From contig JAIWOG010000239.1 of the NCBI GenBank assembly GCA_020217035.1, positions 1 to 10,000 on the forward strand: DNA of 10,000 nucleotides, given 5' to 3'. Below the pieces are notes generated by a model. The model had not been told where the DNA came from. It ran no database searches and worked only from the letters and a program-made list of their open reading frames with translations. Shown here in pieces: positions 317 to 9,713 of this stretch; within the stretch, counting starts at the first letter, position 1; the number at the start of each line of letters is the position of its first letter. This stretch comes from Magnetospirillum sp. GTDB taxonomy: Bacteria > Pseudomonadota > Alphaproteobacteria > Rhodospirillales > Magnetospirillaceae. A program made the position numbers and the translations under genes.

Positions 317-1438
317 CTAGGCCGGTTGCGCCGAAGACCGGCGGCGAAATGGATTGGGTCGCGGGGCACGGGTCAACCCCCAGAACCCCAAGACCAGGGG
401 GAGCGCCGCCAAGGCGTAAAGGCTGGTCAGGAACGCCGGGTTGGACGACGCCAGATTGGCCAGTCCCAAGGCGGCGGCCTGGGTCGCCACCATCAAGCCG
501 ATGGCGGTCAGGATGGTGACGGTTTGGCCGCGGCGGTCGAAAGAGGCGGTCAGCAGGGTGACCAGGGCGATCAAGGCATACCCCATGCAATAAAGCGGCG
601 AGGTCAGGCGTTGGTGGAGCTCGACCTTGGCGCGGCGGTAATCGGATTCGCCCATTTCGGCGGGGTCGGCGGTGAACAGCTCCACCATCGAACGTTCACG
701 GGCGTCGCGGAAACGAGGGCCGCTTTCACCTTGGGCGGTGTTAAGGTCGACGGTGTAGGAATCGAAATGCAGCACCGACAATTGGCCGGTGCCTTCCGGC
801 AATTGCTGGCGGTTGCCGTTGACCATCAGGATGCGCGGTCCTTGATCGGTGAACACCATGGCCCCCTTTTCGGCCATCAGGGTGACCGGCTTGGCGGGGT
901 TGCGGCGGTCGTGGACCAGAATGCCCAGAAGCTCGCCCTCGCTGGTGCGGGCGCGGATGTAGATGGTCAGGCCGTTGCCGAATTTGTTGAAGCTGCCTTC
1001 CTGCAACAAGATGTTCGAGATGTCGTTGCGGATGGTCCATTGCAATTCGCGGAAGTTCTGCACCGTCTTGGGAATGATCCACAAGGACAGGGCATAGGCG
1101 ACGATGGTGGCGGCGGCGGCCAGGATCAGGGCGGGGCGGGCCAAGGCCCAGTTGGACAGGCCGGCGGACCGCAGCACCACCAATTCGCGGTCGGTGTTCA
1201 GCTTGTTGTAGGTGAACAAGATCACGGCGAACAGCGCGATGGGAATGATCACCACCAGGAAGGAGGGCATCAGCATGCCGGTCAGCAGCAGGAAGGTGCC
1301 CACCGAGATGCCCTGGGTGACGATCATCTCGATCAGGCGCAGGGACTGGGTCAGCCACAAGACACAGGCCAGCGCGGCGGAGACGAAGATCATCCCCACT
1401 GCGAGCTGACGCAGGATGTAGCGCGTAATTCCCATCAT
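317..1438 (-). CDS. lptF: LPS export ABC transporter permease LptF
   Basis: Inner-membrane permease of the LptB2FGC machine, which extracts lipopolysaccharide from the inner membrane and feeds it to the periplasmic Lpt bridge. The 373-residue length is normal for LptF. Hydrophobic segments at about 15-33, 47-77, 100-122, 279-298, 305-328 and 335-355 give the six-helix, YjgP/YjgQ-type topology. Residues about 125-250 form the periplasmic domain expected to be a beta-jellyroll. The cytoplasmic stretch DRELVVLRSAGLS (83-95) is the conserved coupling region that contacts the LptB ATPase. The sequence WLTQSLRLIEMIV (28-40) and the region round LLQEGSFN are typical of alphaproteobacterial LptF rather than LptG. 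Two ATG codons are adjacent at the start (1436-1438 and 1433-1435), and neither has a Shine-Dalgarno sequence. A candidate promoter ends only nine bases upstream. The gene downstream is not lptG, so lptG must lie further downstream or elsewhere. Confidence 0.95.
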   Translation of the reverse strand: MMGITRYILRQLAVGMIFVSAALACVLWLTQSLRLIEMIVTQGISVGTFLLLTGMLMPSFLVVIIPIALFAVILFTYNKLNTDRELVVLRSAGLSNWALARPALILAAAATIVAYALSLWIIPKTVQNFRELQWTIRNDISNILLQEGSFNKFGNGLTIYIRARTSEGELLGILVHDRRNPAKPVTLMAEKGAMVFTDQGPRILMVNGNRQQLPEGTGQLSVLHFDSYTVDLNTAQGESGPRFRDARERSMVELFTADPAEMGESDYRRAKVELHQRLTSPLYCMGYALIALVTLLTASFDRRGQTVTILTAIGLMVATQAAALGLANLASSNPAFLTSLYALAALPLVLGFWGLTRAPRPNPFRRRSSAQPA

Positions 1439-1447
1439 GGCGGCCGG

Positions 1448-1476
1448 ATTATAGACAGCACCGGGGCGGCGACCAA
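1448..1476 (-). promoter_or_regulatory. Candidate sigma70-type promoter of lptF (leaderless)
   Basis: On the minus strand, TTGGTC (1471-1476) and a perfect TATAAT (1448-1453) are separated by exactly 17 bases. The -35 box matches the consensus at only three positions. Only nine bases (1439-1447) separate the -10 box from the lptF ATG, so transcription would begin within about three bases of the start codon. This agrees with the missing Shine-Dalgarno sequence and suggests a leaderless mRNA. It lies in the 66-base gap after the preceding dehydrogenase gene. Confidence 0.6.
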
Positions 1477-1504
1477 AGGGAATCTGCCCGACGCGTTTCG
1501 GGGA

Positions 1505-2902
1505 TCAGGGCACAACCTTTCCGGGGTTCATCAGGCCCAGGGGATCCAGCGCCTGCTTGACCCGGCGCATCAGGTCCAGTTCGACGTCCTGCTTGTACCT
1601 GGCCATCTCGGCGACCTTCAACTGGCCGATGCCGTGTTCCGCCGAGACCGAGCCGTCCATTTCGGCGACGATGTCGTGGACGATGTGGTTCATCTCGGCC
1701 CAGCGTTCCAGGAAAGCCGCCTTGTCGGCACCCGCCGGCTGCGTCAGGTTGAAATGGATGTTGCCGTCGCCCACATGGCCGAAGGGCACCACCCGCACGC
1801 CGGGCATGGCGGCTTCCACCGCGCGGGTGCAGCGTTCGATCATCTCGGGCACCCGGCTGACCGGCACCGCGACGTCGTGCTTGATGGACCCGCCTTCCTT
1901 CTTCTGGGCTTCCGGCACCCCTTCGCGGATGCGCCACAAAGCGGCCCGCTGCTCGCCCGACTGGGCCAGCACCGCATCTTGCGCCATCCCCTGTTCGAAG
2001 GTTTCGGCCAAGATGTCCTCAAGCGCCTGTTGCAGCCCGGCCAGTCGCGACGACGACAGTTCCAGCAGCAGGTACCAAGGATGCGGCTGTTCGAACGGGT
2101 CGCGCACGCCGGTCACGTGGGTCATGCCCAGTTCCAGTCCGATGCGGGCCACCAATTCGCAGGCGGTGACGGAATCGCCCGATTGCCGCCGGGCGACGGA
2201 CAGCACCGCCAGCGCCGCCGCCGGGTCGGCCAGCGCGATCAGCGCGGTGGCCCGTTCGGCCGGCTTTGGGAACAACTTCAGGCAGGCGGCGGTGATGATG
2301 CCCAAGGTGCCTTCGGCGCCGATGAACAGGTGTTTCAGGTCATAGCCGGTGTTGTCCTTGCGCAACGACCGCAGGCCGTTCCACACCCGGCCGTCGGGCA
2401 GCACCACTTCCAAGCCCAGGGTCAGGTCGCGGGTGTTGCCGTAACGCAGCACCCCGACGCCGCCGGCATTGGTGGACAAGTTGCCGCCGATGCGGCACGA
2501 GCCCTCGGCCCCCAGGGACAGCGGGAACAGGCAGCCGGCCTGGTCAGCGGCTTGCTGGACGTTGGCCAGCACGCAGCCGGCTTCCACCGTCATGGTGAAG
2601 TTGGCGGTGTCGACGGCGCGGATGCGGTTCAGCCGTTCGGTGGAGATCACCACCGACCCCGTCCGGGGCACCCCGCCACCGCACAGGCCGGTGTTGCCGC
2701 CTTGCGGCACCACCGCCACCTTGGCGTCGGCGCAAGCTTTCATGGCGGCGGCCACCTGGTCGGTGTCGGCCGGGCGCAGCACGGCCAGGGTCTGGCCGCG
2801 ATAAAGGCCGCGTTCCTCGACCACATAGGCTTCTTGATCGGCGGCCTCGGTCAGCACGTGGGATGCGCCCAGCAAGTCCGTCAGGGTGGCGATCAGGCTC
2901 AT
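1505..2902 (-). CDS. FAD-binding D-2-hydroxyacid dehydrogenase (D-2-hydroxyglutarate / D-lactate dehydrogenase family)
   Basis: A 465-residue flavoenzyme of the GlcD/D2HGDH type, oxidising a D-2-hydroxy acid to the 2-oxo acid. The N-terminal PCMH-type FAD domain (about 30-210) shows PQGGNTGLCGGG at 66-77, where the FAD pyrophosphate binds, IGGNLSTNAGGVGVLRYGN at 138-156, and GAEGTLGIIT at 195-204. The C-terminal catalytic cap carries HVGDGNIHFN (His376 and His383) and SAEHGIGQLK (Glu422, His423), the metal and substrate residues of this family, plus a conserved Lys in IKHD (340-343). Everything expected is present and the length is normal. The overall pattern resembles bacterial D-2-hydroxyglutarate dehydrogenases, but D-lactate or another D-hydroxy acid cannot be excluded from sequence. 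It starts two bases after the stop codon of the threonylcarbamoyl-AMP synthase gene (TGA-CC-ATG), so the two are almost certainly translated from one mRNA. In D2HGDH-containing bacteria the enzyme is known to recycle D-2-hydroxyglutarate made by SerA; serA is not in this window. Confidence 0.9.
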   Translation of the reverse strand: MSLIATLTDLLGASHVLTEAADQEAYVVEERGLYRGQTLAVLRPADTDQVAAAMKACADAKVAVVPQGGNTGLCGGGVPRTGSVVISTERLNRIRAVDTANFTMTVEAGCVLANVQQAADQAGCLFPLSLGAEGSCRIGGNLSTNAGGVGVLRYGNTRDLTLGLEVVLPDGRVWNGLRSLRKDNTGYDLKHLFIGAEGTLGIITAACLKLFPKPAERATALIALADPAAALAVLSVARRQSGDSVTACELVARIGLELGMTHVTGVRDPFEQPHPWYLLLELSSSRLAGLQQALEDILAETFEQGMAQDAVLAQSGEQRAALWRIREGVPEAQKKEGGSIKHDVAVPVSRVPEMIERCTRAVEAAMPGVRVVPFGHVGDGNIHFNLTQPAGADKAAFLERWAEMNHIVHDIVAEMDGSVSAEHGIGQLKVAEMARYKQDVELDLMRRVKQALDPLGLMNPGKVVP

Positions 2903-2904
2903 GG

Positions 2905-3867
2905 TCAGCTCCGGGGGCTGGCGGCGCGGCGCAGGCGGTCGTTGATGGCCGCCCCCAGACCGGTCTCGGGGATGGGGGCGACGGCGATGCCGGTGAAGCG
3001 GGAATCGTCCAGGCGGCGCAGGAAGGCGAAAAGGTTGGCCGCCGCTTCTTCCAGGTCGCCGGCGGGCGACAGGTTCAAGGTGGCGTCCATGGCGCCGAAT
3101 CCCAGCAACGCTTCGCCAGCGGCGGCGGAGACGGCGTCCAGGCGCACCGGCAGGCCGGGGGCGTAATGGCTGGCCAGCATGCCGGGGCTTTTCGGCGCTT
3201 GCGGGTCTTGATGCGGGCAGGCCAAGGGTTCGCCCAGGGCCTGTTCCAACTGCTCGGCGGTGACGCCGCCGGGACGCAGCAAGGTCGGACGCGGAGTGGA
3301 CAGGTCCAGCACGGTGGATTCCACCCCGACTCGGCAGGGGCCACCATCGACGATCAGGCCGACGCGGTCGCCCAGGCTTTCCGCCACGTGTTCCGCCAAG
3401 GTCGGGCTGACGGCACCCGACCGGTTGGCGCTGGGGGCGGCGACGGGGCGGCCGGCGGCGCGGATGACGGCGCGGGCGACGGGATGGTCGGGCATGCGGA
3501 TGGCCAGGGTGTCCAGCCCGGCGCTGGCCAGCAACGACACCGGCGAATTATCGGCACGGGGCAGCACCAGGGTCAGCGGGCCGGGCCAGAACCGGGTCAT
3601 CACCTGCCGGGCACGGTCGTCCAGGCGGACCAAAGCAGCGCAATCATCCAGGTCGGCGACATGGACGATCAGCGGGTTGAAGCTGGGGCGGCCCTTGGCG
3701 GCGTAGATGGCGGCCACCGCGCGGTCGTCGGTGGCGTCGGCCCCCAGGCCATAGACGGTTTCGGTGGGAAAGGCCACCAGTTGACCATGGCGCAGCATGT
3801 CGCCGGCCAAGGCGATGGCGTGATCGGTCGCCGGTTCGATGCGGGCATGGGTCTGCGACAGGCTCAT
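2905..3867 (-). CDS. tsaC: L-threonylcarbamoyladenylate synthase, Sua5 (long) type
   Basis: Makes threonylcarbamoyl-AMP from threonine, bicarbonate and ATP, the first step of the t6A37 modification of ANN-decoding tRNAs in the cytoplasm. The YrdC domain occupies about residues 13-200, with PTETVYGLG (34-42), KGRPSFNPL (58-66), PSANRSG (145-151) and GVESTVLDL (181-189), which bind ATP and substrate. The linker SPGM-LASHYAPG (227-238) and the following Rossmann-like Sua5 domain (about 240-310) mark the long form (about 320-350 residues) rather than short TsaC. I chose the ATG at 3865-3867 because family members align from about there. An in-frame ATG at 3883-3885 would add six residues (MFYGAG) but has no ribosome-binding site either. 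The gene follows the fadL-like gene by 39 bases (21 from the alternative start) and precedes the FAD dehydrogenase by two bases. No clear terminator or promoter is visible before it, so it may be read through from the fadL-like gene. Confidence 0.95.
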   Translation of the reverse strand: MSLSQTHARIEPATDHAIALAGDMLRHGQLVAFPTETVYGLGADATDDRAVAAIYAAKGRPSFNPLIVHVADLDDCAALVRLDDRARQVMTRFWPGPLTLVLPRADNSPVSLLASAGLDTLAIRMPDHPVARAVIRAAGRPVAAPSANRSGAVSPTLAEHVAESLGDRVGLIVDGGPCRVGVESTVLDLSTPRPTLLRPGGVTAEQLEQALGEPLACPHQDPQAPKSPGMLASHYAPGLPVRLDAVSAAAGEALLGFGAMDATLNLSPAGDLEEAAANLFAFLRRLDDSRFTGIAVAPIPETGLGAAINDRLRRAASPRS

Positions 3868-3906
3868 GCCCGCACCATAGAACATTCGGGGCGGCGCCGA
3901 AAAGGG

Positions 3907-5172
3907 TCAGAACTTGTAGGAAAAGCCGATGGCCAACTCGTCCTGGTCCATGCGCAGCTTGGTGGTCTGGTTGGCGTTCATCGCCGGGTTGGAACCGCTG
4001 ATGTCGTGCGAGAAGGCGTGGGCGTAGGATCCGGTCAGCGACCATCGCTCGTCGATGTGCCAGGTGCCGCCGAAGCCCACATGGGTGGTGGGTGTCGCCG
4101 GCGCCAGGATGTTGAACAACACTTCCTGGCCGTCGGTGAATTCGGTGGCATGGCTGACCCCGGCCCGCAGGGTCAGCGCCGGGTCGGCCTGCCATTGCAC
4201 ACCGATGCGGTAGATGTCCATGTTGTTCCAACCGAACCCGCCGCCGTCGTCGCCGCCCAAACGCAGCACACCGGCAGAGCGGGCGTGGGAATTGCTGAGC
4301 GAGGCGACGTCTTCATAGAAGATTCGCTGGTGTTCGATCATCACCGCCCAGTCCCGATGCGGCTTGATGGCGATGCCTTCGTTGATGAAGGACGGAATGT
4401 CGAAATCGCCTTGTTCGGCGAACAGGCCGGAATACTTCTCGAACTTGCTCATCCACATGCGTGACTGATAGGCCACGCCCAGGGACAGCCAGGGAACGGG
4501 ATCCCAGGTGGCGCCCAGCTTGAAGCCGCCGCCATAGGACCAGTCGTAACCGTTGCCGGTCAGATGCGCCGAATCGGTGGACGAGCCGGAAAACATCTCG
4601 AGCCCGTAAGCCTTGAAGCGCTGCACCGCCAGCACCGGAGCGATTCCCAGGCTGACATTGTTGTCGAGCTTGTGCGCCAGGTTGAACGAGAAGAAGGCTT
4701 GCGCCAGATCGACGCCCAAGGGCGAGGTGCCGCTGCCGAAGCCGGGAACGAACACGTTGTCCTTATATTCGGTGTTCATGCCGCCATTGCCGAACATCAA
4801 GACGCCGACCGAGGTCTTGTCGTCGACCATGTAATTGGCGCCGCCGCAGACGATTTCGAAAAACTCGTTCTCGCTTTCATAGGTGCCGTTCTTCAGGCCG
4901 CCGGTGCCTTCGTTGGTGACGTCGCGGTGCGGCATGAACGAGGTGAAGCATAGACCTGCGACGTTGCCGACAGCGGTGCCCAAGGCGGGATTCTGGGCCG
5001 AGGCCAACGGCCCTTCGCCCATGGCCACGCCGGCGCCGGCCATGGCTTTGGAAGGGGCGCCGTAACCGTTGGAAAAGTAGCCGTTGGTGGCCCAGGCCGG
5101 CGTCGCCGCCGCCAGCGTCAGGCAAAGCACCAGGGTTCGCCCGGCATGTGCCGGAACGGTGTGTGTGGACAT
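3907..5172 (-). CDS. FadL/OmpP1/TodX-family outer-membrane transport protein
   Basis: A 421-residue outer-membrane beta-barrel of the family that passes long-chain fatty acids or other hydrophobic molecules across the outer membrane. Residues 1-28 are a signal peptide ending TPAWA, with cleavage before Thr29. The mature N-terminus, TNGYFSNGYGAPSKAMAGAG, followed by a GEGPLASAQNPAL block (53-64), matches the FadL N-terminal hatch with its NPA-containing signature. The rest alternates short aromatic-rich strands and loops, and the chain ends in ...SYKF, the terminal phenylalanine recognised by the BAM complex. Two cysteines in the mature part, Cys75 and Cys109, could form a disulfide. A strong Shine-Dalgarno sequence (GGGAGG at 5180-5185) supports this start. 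The substrate cannot be told from sequence: fatty acids, alkanes and aromatics are all known in the family. No fatty-acid degradation genes are adjacent. The long AT-rich, palindrome-rich leader suggests regulated expression. Confidence 0.9.
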   Translation of the reverse strand: MSTHTVPAHAGRTLVLCLTLAAATPAWATNGYFSNGYGAPSKAMAGAGVAMGEGPLASAQNPALGTAVGNVAGLCFTSFMPHRDVTNEGTGGLKNGTYESENEFFEIVCGGANYMVDDKTSVGVLMFGNGGMNTEYKDNVFVPGFGSGTSPLGVDLAQAFFSFNLAHKLDNNVSLGIAPVLAVQRFKAYGLEMFSGSSTDSAHLTGNGYDWSYGGGFKLGATWDPVPWLSLGVAYQSRMWMSKFEKYSGLFAEQGDFDIPSFINEGIAIKPHRDWAVMIEHQRIFYEDVASLSNSHARSAGVLRLGGDDGGGFGWNNMDIYRIGVQWQADPALTLRAGVSHATEFTDGQEVLFNILAPATPTTHVGFGGTWHIDERWSLTGSYAHAFSHDISGSNPAMNANQTTKLRMDQDELAIGFSYKF

Positions 5173-5179
5173 CGAGGAA

Positions 5180-5185
5180 CCTCCC
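5180..5185 (-). promoter_or_regulatory. Ribosome-binding site of the fadL-like gene
   Basis: GGGAGG on the minus strand lies seven bases upstream of the ATG at 5170-5172. It is the best Shine-Dalgarno sequence in the window and fixes the start of the FadL-family protein. Confidence 0.85.
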
Positions 5186-5193
5186 GTTTGCGC

Positions 5194-5213
5194 ACGACCA
5201 TCTTGCGGGTCGT
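5194..5213 (-). other. Inverted repeat in the 5' leader of the fadL-like gene
   Basis: ACGACC (5194-5199) and GGTCGT (5208-5213) are perfect six-base arms round an eight-base loop. In the mRNA this hairpin would sit eight bases upstream of the Shine-Dalgarno sequence, so it could influence translation or mRNA stability. No known riboswitch or thermometer fold is recognised. Confidence 0.45.
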
Positions 5214-5254
5214 CTTAATCAGAGCATGCTGATAGGCAAGCGAGATTTGAAGGC

Positions 5255-5312
5255 AGTATAATGTTACTTCCTGGGCGCAAGTATTATGTATTGCGCATAT
5301 TTTGCACCGCAA
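5255..5312 (-). promoter_or_regulatory. Candidate promoters of the fadL-like gene
   Basis: Two minus-strand -10 candidates lie in the AT-rich region. One is CATAAT (5283-5288, five of six consensus bases) with TTGCGG (5307-5312) 18 bases upstream; this -35 box lies inside the central palindrome. The other is TATACT (5255-5260, five of six), whose -35 region falls on an arm of the outer inverted repeat and matches the consensus poorly. Either arrangement puts a dyad on the polymerase binding site, which suggests repression or activator dependence. The choice between them is open. Confidence 0.45.
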
Positions 5313-5335
5313 AATATTGATTTCCAATACTTGCG
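5276..5335. repeat. 60-bp nested inverted-repeat element, candidate operator
   Basis: Outer arms CGCAAGTATT (5276-5285) and AATACTTGCG (5326-5335) are perfect 10-base complements 40 bases apart. Inside lies a second perfect dyad, ATATTTTGC (5297-5305) and GCAAAATAT (5309-5317), with a three-base centre. The two centres differ by only 1.5 bases. A third short dyad, TATTG/CAATA (5315-5319 and 5325-5329), overlaps the right side. The element is strongly AT-rich against GC-rich surroundings. It can be read as a compound operator, as a bulged hairpin in RNA, or as a small palindromic mobile repeat. The 192-base gap 5173-5364 holds this element, the candidate promoters, the leader hairpin, an AGCATGCT palindrome at 5223-5230 and the ribosome-binding site, but no gene. 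No T-run follows the inner stem, so it is a poor intrinsic terminator for cysQ. Confidence 0.7.
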
Positions 5336-5364
5336 AGTGGGCTGCCGCGACCCCTGCGGGTTGG

Positions 5365-6129
5365 TCAGGGCTTGGCGCGGGCCAGGAAATCGGGATTGCG
5401 GAACTTGGGCTTGCCGTATCCCAAGGCGGCGCCGTCCCAGGTCACCACCTCGCCGCCGGCCGCCAGTAATACCGCGTGGGCGGCCGCCGTGTCCCATTCG
5501 CTGGTCGGGCCGAAACGCGGGTAGTAATCGCCGCTGCCTTCGGCGATGCGGCAGAATTTCAGCGACGACCCGGCGTTTTCCACCTGGGCGCCCGGCAAGG
5601 TGTCCAGGAAGGCTTGCAGGCGGTCGGCGGCGCGATGCGAGCGCGAATCCAGCACCACCGCGCCGGTGGCCGGGGCCTTGCGGCAGGCGATGGGGGTGCG
5701 GCCATGGCTGTCCTGGCGCCAGGCTTGGCCGCCGGCGCCGGCCCACAGGATATCCAGCGCCGGGGCGTAGACCACCCCCAGCACCGGCACACCGCCCTGG
5801 ATCAGGCCGATGTTGACGGTGAACTCGCCGTTTTTCTTGACGAATTCCTTGGTGCCGTCCAGCGGGTCGACCAGCCAGAAATCGGCGCCGACATCGGGAA
5901 TACGCCCGGCGGCGGCTTCTTCCTCGGCGACAATGGGAATGTCGGGGGTCAGGTGACGCAGCACCGGCAGGATCACCGCCTCGGCCTGGCCGTCGGCGGC
6001 GGTCACCGGATCGTTCTCGCCCTTGAACTTCACCGCGAAGTCCTGGGCGTAGATGTCCATGATGACGCGGCCGGCGTCGCGGGCGGCATGTTCAAGGGGA
6101 AGCAGCAAGTCGAGCACGGGGCGATCCAA
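5365..6129 (-). CDS. cysQ: 3'(2'),5'-bisphosphate nucleotidase CysQ
   Basis: A 254-residue member of the inositol monophosphatase-like family that hydrolyses adenosine 3',5'-bisphosphate (PAP) to AMP, removing the by-product of PAPS-dependent sulfate assimilation and sulfation. Motifs in order are DPVTAAD (40-46), VAEEE (67-71), the metal-binding WLVDPLDGTKEF (85-96; Asp88, Asp91), the NGEFTVNIGLI stretch (100-110) typical of CysQ, GSSLKFCRIAEG (187-198), and SEWDTAAAH (210-218; Asp213 as the third metal ligand). All catalytic residues are present and the length is normal. The first codon of this reading is TTG (6127-6129), with no clear Shine-Dalgarno sequence; a GTG four codons later is an alternative. 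It lies 20 bases downstream of the MEMO-AMMECR1 gene on the same strand and is probably in the same operon. No sulfate-assimilation genes are nearby. Confidence 0.92.
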   Translation of the reverse strand: MDRPVLDLLLPLEHAARDAGRVIMDIYAQDFAVKFKGENDPVTAADGQAEAVILPVLRHLTPDIPIVAEEEAAAGRIPDVGADFWLVDPLDGTKEFVKKNGEFTVNIGLIQGGVPVLGVVYAPALDILWAGAGGQAWRQDSHGRTPIACRKAPATGAVVLDSRSHRAADRLQAFLDTLPGAQVENAGSSLKFCRIAEGSGDYYPRFGPTSEWDTAAAHAVLLAAGGEVVTWDGAALGYGKPKFRNPDFLARAKP

Positions 6130-6149: not shown

Positions 6150-7523
6150 CTAGTGGGCGGGCGCCTTGATTTCAACCGCCTCGAAGCGCTGCGCCCGGAA
6201 GCTGGGCGACCAATAATCGGCGGCCATGCCGGCCTTCAGCTTCAGATGGGCCAGGAACTGGCGCTTGTCCGGCAGTTGTTCCCAGACGCTGGGCAGGAAC
6301 AAGGCGCGTTTGCCCGCGTCCTCGATGATCAATCCGTCGATTCCGGGACGCAATTGCGCCAGCAAGTCGTCCTGGTCGGCGATGGTCATGGCGGTGGGGG
6401 GCGTCAGCACCGACACCGACAGCGTCACCTCCGGCCATTCGGCGGCGGTGACGGGGGGGAAGCGCGGGTCGCGGCTGGCGGCTTTCACCGCGTTGTCGCA
6501 GACGTCCTCGGCCAGTGGCCGCCACGCCTGGGGTGAACCGATGCAGCCACGCAACTGGCCGTTCTTCTTCAGGGTGACGAAACAGGCGCCAGGCTGGCGC
6601 AGCGGCGCCGGCATGTCGGGGCCGGCATGGGCATCCACCGGCCGCCCATGGTCCAGATGGGTCTGGATGGCGGCCCGCGCCAGTTCCAGCAACAGTGGGC
6701 CGACGGGGCGAATGTCGGCGGCTTCGGGCTCGTACAACGCCCAGGCGCCGTATCCTACGACCTTGTCCTTGGGGCCCTTGGTGTCGCCGGAATTGCGCAA
6801 ATCCAAGGTGGCGATGGTCATGCCGCGCCGCTTGGCCGCCAGCAGCAAGCCGCCCATGGGCATCCGCCCGCAGGCTTGGTCGCGCGACAGCGCGGCGGGG
6901 TCCAGGTTTTCGATGGCGATCCGGGTGCGGTCGTCCAAGTCGCGGCAGGCGGCGTAATCCAGGTAATGGGACAAGTCGGAGGACACCACCACCAGGGTTT
7001 CCGGCCCGCCCCACAGGGCGTCCAGCAGCGCCGCCACTTGTTCGGGTGCGCAATCGCCCACCACCACCGGGATCAGCGAAAAATCTCCCAGGGTCTTTTG
7101 CAAGAAGGGCAGGTGCACTTCCAGGGAATGTTCCTGGGCGTGGGCCTGTTCCAGTGTGCCGACCATGGGAACCTTGCCGACCACTTGGGCGATGGCGGCG
7201 CGGTCCAGCGGCACGTCGCCCAGCGGCGAGGCCCATGCATCGGCTTCGCTGACCGCCATGCCACGGAAGGCGACGCGGTGCGACGGTCCCAGCAGCACCA
7301 CGCGAGTGATGGCGCCCCGCGGCCCCCGCAGCAAGTCATAGGCGCTGGCAGCCACCGCGCCGGAATAGACCCAGCCGGCATGGGGCGCGATGATCGCCTT
7401 GGGCACCCCCAGTTCGGGGTGCGGCTTGGCATCGGCCCAGCATTGGTCCAGTTGACGCATGGCTTGGGCGGCGTCTTGCGGATAGAACATGCCGGCGACG
7501 GCACTTGGGCGTATGATGGTCAT
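6150..7523 (-). CDS. amrB-amrA: AmmeMemoRadiSam system protein B-A fusion (MEMO1 domain + AMMECR1 domain)
   Basis: A 457-residue two-domain protein. The N-terminal MEMO/AmrB domain (about 1-265) belongs to a dioxygenase-like (LigB-type) fold. It shows PHAGWVYSG (47-55, His48), LLGPSH (77-82, His82), EHSLEVHLPF (131-140), SSDLSHY (181-187, Asp183 and His186) and ACGRMPMGG (217-225, Cys218). His48, His82 and Cys218 correspond to the metal-binding His, His and Cys of human MEMO1. The C-terminal AMMECR1/AmrA domain (about 272-457) has the hallmark LRGCIG (324-329) and the DNAVKAASRDPRFPPV block (343-358). The start at 7521-7523 was chosen because MTIIRPSAVAGMFYP is where MEMO proteins begin; upstream in-frame codons to 7640 would overlap the divergent radical SAM gene. 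In many genomes A and B are separate genes, so this is a fusion. The reaction of the system is not known to me. It is divergent to the radical SAM partner and followed by cysQ. Confidence 0.93.
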   Translation of the reverse strand: MTIIRPSAVAGMFYPQDAAQAMRQLDQCWADAKPHPELGVPKAIIAPHAGWVYSGAVAASAYDLLRGPRGAITRVVLLGPSHRVAFRGMAVSEADAWASPLGDVPLDRAAIAQVVGKVPMVGTLEQAHAQEHSLEVHLPFLQKTLGDFSLIPVVVGDCAPEQVAALLDALWGGPETLVVVSSDLSHYLDYAACRDLDDRTRIAIENLDPAALSRDQACGRMPMGGLLLAAKRRGMTIATLDLRNSGDTKGPKDKVVGYGAWALYEPEAADIRPVGPLLLELARAAIQTHLDHGRPVDAHAGPDMPAPLRQPGACFVTLKKNGQLRGCIGSPQAWRPLAEDVCDNAVKAASRDPRFPPVTAAEWPEVTLSVSVLTPPTAMTIADQDDLLAQLRPGIDGLIIEDAGKRALFLPSVWEQLPDKRQFLAHLKLKAGMAADYWSPSFRAQRFEAVEIKAPAH

Positions 7524-7572
7524 GGCGGCGCCCCATTGCGGTTGCGGGGGCCATGATAGCACGGGTTCGGCC
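7524..7572. promoter_or_regulatory. 49-bp divergent intergenic region of the AmmeMemoRadiSam locus
   Basis: Only 49 bases separate the ATG of the MEMO-AMMECR1 gene (minus) from the ATG of the radical SAM gene (plus). Both sets of promoter signals must lie here or inside the opposite coding sequence, so the two genes are likely co-regulated. I see no convincing -35/-10 pair and only weak ribosome-binding sites on either side. Confidence 0.5.
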
Positions 7573-8661
7573 ATGAACGCAGACTTGCAGGGCTCGCATT
7601 TTCCTGCCCGCCATTGGCATGCGCTGGTGGATGGCCGCATCCAGTGCGACGTCTGCCCGCGTTATTGCAAGCTGAATGACGGCCAGCGCGGCCTGTGCTT
7701 CGTCCGGGGGCGGGACGGCGACCACTTGGTGTTGACCACCTACGGACGGTCGTCGGGGTTCTGCGTCGATCCCATCGAAAAGAAGCCGTTGAACCATTTC
7801 CTGCCCGGCACCCCGGTTTTCTCGTTCGGCACGGCGGGTTGCAACCTGACCTGCAAGTTCTGCCAGAACTGGGACATCTCGAAAGCCCGCGAAATCGACC
7901 GGCTGAACGACTTCGCCAGCCCGGATCAGATCGCCCGGGCGGCGGCGCAACTGAAATGCCGGTCGGTGGCCTATACCTACAACGATCCGGTCGTCTTCAT
8001 GGAATACGCCATCGACACGGCCATCGCCTGCCGCAGGTTGGGGCTCAAGAACGTGGCGGTGACGGCGGGCTACATGGCGCCGGCCGCGCGCGCCGAGTTC
8101 TATGCCCACATGGACGCCGCCAATGTCGACCTGAAGGCGTTTTCCGAGGATTTCTACCACCAGCTTTGTGGGGGGCATCTGGCCGACGTGCTGGATACCC
8201 TGGTCTATCTGAAACATGAAACCCAGGTGTGGTTCGAGATCACCACGTTGCTGATCCCCGGCCAAAACGATTCCGATTCCGAAGTGGCGGAAATGTCGGC
8301 TTGGATCTTCCGCGAGCTTGGCCCCGACGTGCCGCTGCACTTCACCGCCTTCCATCCCGACTGGAAGATGCGTGATCTCGCCAACACTCCGGCCGCCACC
8401 CTGACGCGGGCCCGCCGGATCGCCATGGAGGCGGGTTTGGCCTATGTCTACACCGGCAACGTCCACGACCAAAGCGGGGGCGGCACCTATTGCCGGGGCT
8501 GCGGGACCCTTCTGATCGGCCGCGATTGGCATCAGTTGACCGCCTGGAGGCTGGACGAAAAAGGCGCCTGCCAAGATTGCGGCACGCCGCTTCCCGGAGT
8601 GTTCGAAGCCGCTCCCGGCGATTGGGGGCGCAAGCGTTTGCCCGTGCGCCTGCGGCGGTGA
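7573..8661 (+). CDS. amrS: AmmeMemoRadiSam system radical SAM enzyme
   Basis: A 362-residue radical SAM protein; it binds a [4Fe-4S] cluster and cleaves S-adenosylmethionine to a 5'-deoxyadenosyl radical. The cluster motif CNLTCKFC is at 90-97 (Cys90, Cys94, Cys97), preceded by DPIEKKPLNHFLPG (66-79) and followed by QNWDISKA, all characteristic of the system's radical SAM component (PflA-like, COG1180). An N-terminal cysteine set, CDVCPRYC (25-32) with Cys42, precedes the barrel. A C-terminal pair of CxxC motifs (Cys307/Cys310 and Cys333/Cys336) looks like a zinc ribbon or an auxiliary cluster site. The start at 7573 fits family members, which begin shortly before the first cysteines; extending upstream would run into the divergent gene. 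Pairing with the MEMO-AMMECR1 fusion defines the system, but its substrate is unknown to me. The flippase-like gene follows after 44 bases and may be co-transcribed. Confidence 0.93.
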   Translation: MNADLQGSHFPARHWHALVDGRIQCDVCPRYCKLNDGQRGLCFVRGRDGDHLVLTTYGRSSGFCVDPIEKKPLNHFLPGTPVFSFGTAGCNLTCKFCQNWDISKAREIDRLNDFASPDQIARAAAQLKCRSVAYTYNDPVVFMEYAIDTAIACRRLGLKNVAVTAGYMAPAARAEFYAHMDAANVDLKAFSEDFYHQLCGGHLADVLDTLVYLKHETQVWFEITTLLIPGQNDSDSEVAEMSAWIFRELGPDVPLHFTAFHPDWKMRDLANTPAATLTRARRIAMEAGLAYVYTGNVHDQSGGGTYCRGCGTLLIGRDWHQLTAWRLDEKGACQDCGTPLPGVFEAAPGDWGRKRLPVRLRR

Positions 8662-8705: not shown

Positions 8706-9713
8706 ATGGTCAAGCGTCTTCTGCCTTGGATTGTGAAGGGCGGTGTTTCCGTCGGATTGATCGCCTGGGTGCTGTCCAAGGTGGACCTGCCCAGCGCCTG
8801 GGAACAGGCCAAGGCCATGGATATCGGCATGGTGGTGCTGGCCTTGGTGTTGATGCTGGCTCAAATCGGCCTGGGCGCGGTGCGCTGGGGGCTGGTGCTG
8901 CGGGCGTTGGACGCCTGCTTCCGGTGGTCGTCGACGGCGGCGGTCTATTATATCGGGGTGTTCTTTTCCATCGTCTTGCCCGGCGCGGTGGGTGGCGACG
9001 CGGTGCGCATGTGGTTTTCCCGCCGTGCCGGCCTGTCCTTGTCCACCGCCGTCAATTCGGTGGCGCTGGAACGGGCCATGACGGTGTTCGCCCTGGTATT
9101 GCTGGTCTGCCTGACCCAGCCCATCCTGATGACCCGCATTCCCGACTTGCCCGGTGTCTGGGTGTTCCCCATGCTGCTGGCCATCTGCGTCATCGGCATC
9201 CTGGCGCTGGCGTCCTTGGACAAGCTGCCGGCATCCCTGCACCGTTGGAAATTGGTGCGAGGATTGGTGCAGTTGGCCGGCGACACCCGCAAGCTGTTCT
9301 TTCATCCGGCCTGGAGTTTGGGGACCCTGGTGGTGGCCTTGGTCGGGCACGCCAACCTGTCCTTGGCGGTCTACGTCCTGGCCATCGGGTTGAATCTGGA
9401 TGTCCATGTGCTGGACACCCTGGTGCTGGTGCCGCCGGTCATCCTGGTGATGACGTTGCCCATTTCCATCGCCGGCTGGGGGGTGCGGGAAACCGCCATG
9501 GTCACCGCCTTCGGTTTCGTCGGCGTGGCGGATCATTCGGCCATCGTGCTGTCCATCATCTTCGGCATCGTCACCATGGTGACGGCGCTGCCCGGCGGCT
9601 TGGTGTTCCTGATGGCCGGCGGCAAGAAGATGGAGGACGAGGAGCTGGCCGAGGAAAAGGCGGCCGGCGACCAGCCCCACGGCGTGCACACCCCGCCTTC
9701 GCCCTTGCCGTAA
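8706..9713 (+). CDS. Flippase-like integral membrane protein (LPG synthase TM / UPF0104, YbhN family)
   Basis: A 335-residue inner-membrane protein resembling the N-terminal flippase domain of MprF and stand-alone relatives such as YbhN and HpnL. Hydrophobic segments lie at about 6-23, 40-66, 78-93, 123-141, 152-170, 203-228, 236-252 and 277-303. The family motifs are visible: LPGAVGGDAVRMW (91-103), SVALERAMTVFAL (118-130) and LPISIAGWGVRET (251-263). The last 30 residues form a charged, then proline-rich, cytoplasmic tail. There is no synthase domain, so it is not a full MprF. Lipid or isoprenoid-linked substrate movement is a family-based inference, and no hopanoid genes are adjacent to suggest HpnL. 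The start is supported by AGGA (8697-8700) five bases before the ATG. It follows the radical SAM gene closely. Its stop codon lies within the candidate pepA promoter. Confidence 0.85.
   Translation: MVKRLLPWIVKGGVSVGLIAWVLSKVDLPSAWEQAKAMDIGMVVLALVLMLAQIGLGAVRWGLVLRALDACFRWSSTAAVYYIGVFFSIVLPGAVGGDAVRMWFSRRAGLSLSTAVNSVALERAMTVFALVLLVCLTQPILMTRIPDLPGVWVFPMLLAICVIGILALASLDKLPASLHRWKLVRGLVQLAGDTRKLFFHPAWSLGTLVVALVGHANLSLAVYVLAIGLNLDVHVLDTLVLVPPVILVMTLPISIAGWGVRETAMVTAFGFVGVADHSAIVLSIIFGIVTMVTALPGGLVFLMAGGKKMEDEELAEEKAAGDQPHGVHTPPSPLP

Follow-up and report, generated by a model that had tools for sequence, protein, structure and literature searches.

Does a radical S-adenosylmethionine (SAM) enzyme work as one machine with the MEMO-AMMECR1 fusion protein whose gene lies beside its own, and if so what would such a machine do? 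The question is raised by positions 6150 to 8661 of a 10,000-nucleotide stretch of Magnetospirillum sp. DNA (the window; GenBank assembly GCA_020217035.1, contig JAIWOG010000239.1), which a preliminary description, made from the letters alone, had put forward as an undescribed biochemical system. We find that this AmmeMemoRadiSam locus, consisting of a fused AmrB-AmrA gene and the radical SAM gene amrS, is another member of a known, named system. The new evidence of use comes from outside the window: planctomycete proteins carry all three families in one chain and support the reading of MEMO, AMMECR1 and AmrS as a physical or obligatory functional unit, which we hold to be likely.

Results and discussion

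The fusion gene (6150..7523, minus strand, with its start ATG at 7521-7523 and its end at 6150) encodes 457 residues, and is separated by a divergent intergenic stretch of 49 bases (7524..7572) from amrS (7573..8661, plus strand), which encodes 362 residues from the ATG at 7573; a longer mechanical open reading frame (ORF) would begin at 7489. The MEMO domain (residues 5-262; 6738..7511, minus strand) scores 260.3 bits against TIGR04336 (cut-off 26, E = 1.8e-77), the AMMECR1 domain (residues 278-450; 6174..6692, minus strand) 202.9 bits against TIGR04335 (cut-off 99, E = 2.4e-60), and AmrS over its whole length 642.2 bits against TIGR04337 (cut-off 220, E = 1.7e-193). Given these three E-values, chance matches are excluded. 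PF01875 and PF01871 match the same two domains, Pfam finds no family in the fusion other than Memo and AMMECR1, and the AlphaFold2 model of the fusion has a mean predicted local distance difference test score of 95.6 and a predicted template modelling score of 0.88. Each of the three families occurs once in the window's own genome (completeness 94%), and they are adjacent. The identity and integrity of the locus are practically certain.

ORF coordinates and profile matches bear out the three families, the B-A domain order, the ORFs and the 49-base gap given in the preliminary description, the three model searches that it suggested all end far over cut-off, and the residues it named (His48, His82, Cys218, LRGCIG and CxxxCxxC) are in place by alignment. 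Its claim to an undescribed system does not stand: the families already have named NCBIfam models, and an eLife paper of 2020 (PMC7159879), with reference to Burroughs 2019, speaks of recently described Memo-Ammecr1 systems that have a radical SAM partner. As in AmmeMemoRadiSam generally (TIGR04335, TIGR04336 and TIGR04337), all three families are here adjacent and over their curated cut-offs; the difference is that A and B are joined in one protein, which is common in relatives and makes the locus a variant layout, not a new system. For Memo, the abstract of Burroughs 2019 reportedly draws links with AMMECR1, with a radical SAM domain and with the modification of nucleotide bases or isoprenoids.

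The compact, fused layout is the norm for this bacterial family and no peculiarity of the strain. Among 55 genomes of the family, examined by profile search with fusion scored by equal open frames, MEMO, AMMECR1 and AmrS exceed cut-off in 51, 51 and 52 genomes respectively, MEMO is fused to AMMECR1 in 49 of the 51 MEMO-positive genomes (separate in G032 and G049), and in all 37 genomes whose MEMO and intact amrS share a contig the two are divergent; amrS is split by insertion in 3 of the 51 genomes with both. In the phylum sample of 249 genomes the corresponding counts are 57, 55 and 59, with MEMO and AmrS together in 55, MEMO only in 2, AmrS only in 4 and neither in 188 (Fisher p = 9e-48, overstated as the genomes are related). 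The preliminary description had named two refutations, a model search that misses one of the families and a failure of the fusion and the radical SAM gene to co-occur; the searches above and this genome survey saw neither. The survey of B-A fusions it had also suggested gives, beside the family figure, 31 fusions among 66 MEMO places in the phylum, the others being adjacent but separate (29) or apart (6); one sub-cut-off match is excluded, and G110, with two frames of equal length and a 440-residue span greater than 299, is not scored as fused. MEMO comes first and AMMECR1 second in unfused operons (e.g. G223), so that the fusion is what joining these neighbours would be expected to give.

This arrangement admits the view that the genes have separate functions and are merely inherited together as neighbours, the fusion being a neutral read-through: MEMO and AMMECR1 are often, at 29 of the 66 MEMO places, separate genes next to each other on the same strand, so that fusion needs little beyond loss of a stop, and AmrS is sometimes on another contig. 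Loci from a named genome collection, taken as the best 80 of more than 590 AmrS matches and with a fetched stretch that is short in several, bear on this. Nine have the fusion, and MEMO is divergent upstream in 50, co-directional in 7, convergent in 2 and absent from the fetched stretch in 21. MEMO or AMMECR1 is missing from the stretch at 35 loci, and the 21 of their genomes that were searched have MEMO somewhere in 19 and AMMECR1 in 15. Co-occurrence beyond the fetched stretch counts against mere neighbourhood: these 21 loci all lack AMMECR1 in that stretch but 15 of the genomes have it elsewhere, and 15 of the loci lack MEMO in the stretch as well, with 13 genomes having it elsewhere.

Mechanical ORFs of these 80 loci and of the window were grouped by single-linkage clustering. 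Clusters 0-10, judged by where one representative of each lies, are AmrS, MEMO, AMMECR1 or ORFs overlapping them; antisense ORFs aside, the widest further clusters among the 81 loci are an LPG_synthase_TM flippase-like gene (7 loci), an M17 aminopeptidase (6), and HolC, CysQ, Sua5 and an ABC ATPase (5 each). A conserved extra partner gene was considered and rejected, LPG_synthase_TM, the M17 aminopeptidase, HolC, CysQ and Sua5 being found mostly in Rhodospirillales or alphaproteobacterial kin and read as local synteny. The neighbour clustering of the 81 loci gives no support for transfer RNA or isoprenoid targets. Viral contigs yielded no match with a single-sequence query and one distant match (27%) with alignment A1 as query.

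In planctomycetes the three families can be found in a single chain. Of 199 genomes, 118 have MEMO, 101 have AmrS over cut-off and 93 have both, counts that take in low-scoring MEMOs of one clade and AmrS of more distant kinds; only 39 genomes have a best AmrS match of at least 494 bits, and 38 of these have MEMO. In G369, G390 and G502 MEMO and AmrS are in one frame of 1078-1112 residues, in which profile scans give the order AmrS, AMMECR1, a region of about 205 residues (region X) and MEMO; for two of these proteins searches of Pfam and NCBIfam bear out all three families. With region X as query, matches were found in 50 of 150 genomes of that planctomycete order, and of 20 more loci from these 50 genomes 19 have the three families and X in one frame (1062-1242 residues), the twentieth (L212) reading AMMECR1-X-MEMO with no AmrS in frame. 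The one-chain total is 22 of 23 loci examined, which, being chosen among X matches, describes X-bearing loci and not all planctomycetes. CX3CX2C, LR[GS]C, PHAG and GP[KR]H are present in 22 of 22 one-chain loci. Region X itself has no convincing Pfam family (best E 0.018, 16 members) and no sequence match in the PDB up to E 1; an HHalign comparison with AMMECR1 gives P = 0.003 over 74 columns with a probability of just 10%, and to read X as a second, degenerate AMMECR1 is guesswork.

The one-chain AmrS-AMMECR1-X-MEMO order supports one machine, and its persistence across deeply diverged planctomycetes, in which X is 22-77% identical to the first alignment row, speaks against neutral read-through; we consider co-inherited neighbours of separate function a very improbable explanation. 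Co-inheritance, adjacency, pairwise fusion and the conserved three-way fusion together make separate functions for MEMO, AMMECR1 and AmrS unlikely. The inference in the preliminary description that the parts act together, drawn there from fusion and divergence, is now supported beyond fusion alone, by co-occurrence and by the one-chain proteins. Its narrower proposal, that the two domains act on a product or substrate of the radical enzyme, may or may not hold, and the results point to RNA no more than to other targets.

The conserved residues suggest where chemistry might take place. The MEMO domain of the window has the His-His-Cys ligands and fold of its family: H48, H82 and C218 (codons 7380-7382, 7278-7280 and 6870-6872, minus strand), conserved in 97/97, 97/97 and 92/97 alignment rows, correspond in the alignment to human MEMO1 residues H49, H81 and C244, named as iron ligands in the available text of PMC11081632. 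H132, D183 and H186 are also conserved. The fold is common to extradiol dioxygenases, but in LigAB, DesB and 2-aminophenol 1,6-dioxygenase the third ligand is Glu whereas in MEMO it is Cys (PMC11081632, as far as available), and with C218 in this position the domain lacks the His-His-Glu or Asp set of an extradiol dioxygenase. Human MEMO1 (PDB 7kq8, 7l5c, 3bcz) is a stand-alone protein, unlike the fused domain of the window. The AMMECR1 domain combines its family's fold with the LRGCIG motif (residues 324-329; 6537..6554, minus strand) described in the available part of PMC5502304. The motif cysteine, Cys327 (codon 6543-6545), is present in 78/78 AMMECR1 rows, and Cys327, Asp352, Arg354 and Lys430 are invariant or nearly so. 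The AMMECR1 structures 1vaj, 1zq7 and 1wsc, whose depositions give them as hypothetical or functionally unknown, are of stand-alone proteins, whereas the domain here is fused behind MEMO.

Several observations weigh against an obligatory three-part unit. Of the 51 genomes of the family that have both amrS and MEMO, 11 have them on different contigs, so adjacency is perhaps not obligatory, these being draft assemblies. AMMECR1 was not found in G197, nor, in the set of 21 checked, in G314, G317, G318 and G319 (several of them metagenome assemblies, completeness not given), despite the presence of MEMO and AmrS; because of such genomes MEMO-AmrS may be the core and AMMECR1 accessory. AmrS without MEMO is seen in 4 of the 249 phylum genomes (G076, G211, G176 with AmrS of the more distant kind only, and G222, where the copy is broken) and in 8 of the 199 planctomycete genomes. 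Conversely, 25 of the 118 MEMO-positive planctomycete genomes have no AmrS over cut-off, and H48, H82 and C218 are unchanged in the 12 AmrS-less planctomycete MEMOs examined, from which MEMO seems able to work without AmrS. For human MEMO1, moreover, no dioxygenase activity was seen with standard substrates (PMC11081632).

These same MEMOs, which keep their ligands in genomes without AmrS over cut-off, would fit a MEMO-AMMECR1 pair that serves to handle iron or copper, MEMO supplying or protecting the iron-sulphur clusters of AmrS or of the cell with no catalysis on the AmrS substrate. In human MEMO1, residues H49, H81 and C244 are the binding site for iron and copper, and the protein modulates iron homeostasis, no enzymatic activity having been found (PMC11081632, available text), and the window's MEMO has the same ligands. 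But metal handling leaves the conserved H132, D183 and H186 and the extradiol-dioxygenase fold unexplained, and it gives no role to AMMECR1 and its invariant cysteine. We consider it unlikely, if the least improbable of the alternatives.

AmrS has the CX3CX2C motif and the PF04055 match of the radical SAM superfamily, its cysteines C90, C94 and C97 (7840..7863, plus strand) each being present in 115/115 alignment rows. In sequence and fold it is nearest to pyruvate formate-lyase activase, though 47.6 bits against TIGR02493 (cut-off 231.75) indicate fold resemblance only, not membership. Unlike that enzyme (3cb8) it has an additional N-terminal four-cysteine motif (C25, C28, C32 and C42; 7645..7698, plus strand), in which C28 is present in 111/115 rows and the others in 115/115, and a C-terminal CX2C...CX2C module (C307, C310, C333 and C336; 8491..8580, plus strand; 115/115, 112/115, 113/115 and 113/115 rows) that is zinc-ribbon-like by pattern only. 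From its activase-like fold and extra cysteine modules AmrS looks like an enzyme for a protein or bulky substrate.

The resemblance invites a further alternative, that AmrS is an activase from which MEMO or AMMECR1 receives a stable radical, in the way that a glycine receives one from pyruvate formate-lyase activase, the enzyme then being the activated fusion. A candidate glycine exists in VVGY near the MEMO C-terminus, found in 92/92 rows having letters there where human MEMO1 has VSY, and some AmrS-less planctomycete MEMOs depart from it (L154 VVAY, both L171 rows VSY, five low-scoring rows VS). The glycine nevertheless does not track AmrS, because the L181 MEMO beside a full-length AmrS reads VSY and L139, L152, L163 and L170 retain VVGY in genomes without AmrS over cut-off; the specific claim of a MEMO glycyl radical at VVGY was dropped. 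Pfam also shows only Memo and AMMECR1 on the fusion, and we regard an activase role as improbable, more so than metal handling.

We favour a catalytic unit, and that the locus is what it appears to be, that the three parts form one working unit and that the set carries out a radical-initiated modification, with no substrate named, is on balance probable. More tentatively, and below an even chance, the modification could run as a relay. AmrS would dock onto the MEMO-AMMECR1 pair, its [4Fe-4S] cluster would cleave SAM to a 5'-deoxyadenosyl radical, this would abstract hydrogen from a substrate bound at or close to AMMECR1 (Cys327, Asp352, Arg354 and Lys430), and the mononuclear His2-Cys metal site of MEMO, in its extradiol-dioxygenase-like fold, would do or finish the redox step. 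Literature searches found no reaction for AmmeMemoRadiSam, no title concerning the system's function among papers using that name, and no paper bringing together MEMO1, AMMECR1 and radical SAM in those spellings.

Variants and neighbouring genes

Additional AmrS-like genes (L031-L036 and L038-L041) are of two kinds, 43-47% and 34-38% identical to the window's AmrS. The former adjoins or is near a MEMO-AMMECR1 fusion, and in 5 of 6 genomes this fusion is a second copy of MEMO; the latter has Ser in place of the N-terminal C28. A selenocysteine AmrS, considered for a single TGA within several weaker AmrS matches, was dropped because TGA is the natural stop wherever the alignment reached it (right after the C-terminal GVWT in L031, L033 and L034); in L032, L035 and L036 the alignment ends before the TGA.

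Three genomes, all from a single genus of the family, have a split amrS gene (G042, L134 2258-4324 and L135 8515-9870; G040, L047 and L048; G038, by match table only). Beside the fusion stands the native 5' part, which extends to about codon 99, and a second 5' part 17-27 kilobases off runs in frame into the 3' part. In G042 the native 5' part is followed by a 570-residue protein that has a phage-integrase domain, and the G+C content falls from about 70% to 50%; in the rebuilt amrS of G042 and G040 two copies of QNW[DS]ISK stand about 40 residues apart. AmrS without MEMO or AMMECR1 is seen in L046 (G211), L067 (Bradyrhizobium sp. NAS80.1, G321) and G222, where amrS in two pieces with a stop suggests decay.

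Among planctomycete MEMOs, L171 (3071-5704, minus strand) is a MEMO-AMMECR1 protein with a C-terminal caspase domain (PF00656, 52 bits) beside a second MEMO-AMMECR1 gene, in a genome (G481) with no AmrS match. L172-L177 form a divergent clade (frames of 411-523 residues, about 103-131 bits) in which the HAG and SGD motifs are missing and H48, H82, C218, D183 and H186 are retained in 6/6 rows. The long N-terminal MEMO extension of L178-L180 is an open frame in high-GC DNA, with nothing found by Pfam in L178 and L179, and is not taken as protein.

The window's other genes (317-6129 and 8706-9713) encode LptF, a GlcD-like flavin adenine dinucleotide oxidase, threonylcarbamoyl-AMP synthase, a FadL-type porin, CysQ and a flippase-like membrane protein, and part of this order is found again in some alphaproteobacterial loci.

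Conclusions

The one-chain planctomycete protein was not found in literature searches, outside which Burroughs 2019 lay, and we do not claim it as unpublished. MEMO1 and AMMECR1 are conserved human proteins linked to cancer, development and an X-linked disorder, and in the available text of PMC11081632 and PMC5502304 their primary function is given as unknown. A possible view, for which we would claim somewhat less than even odds, is that AmmeMemoRadiSam is a single obligatory radical/non-heme-metal enzyme, present as one AmrS-AMMECR1-X-MEMO chain in planctomycetes and reassembled from its parts in the split versions, and that human MEMO1 and AMMECR1 would be its orphaned parts. Animals are not known to have AmrS. 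The bacterial fusion together with one enzyme, or the planctomycete single chain with its fixed stoichiometry, offers practical material for finding the reaction.
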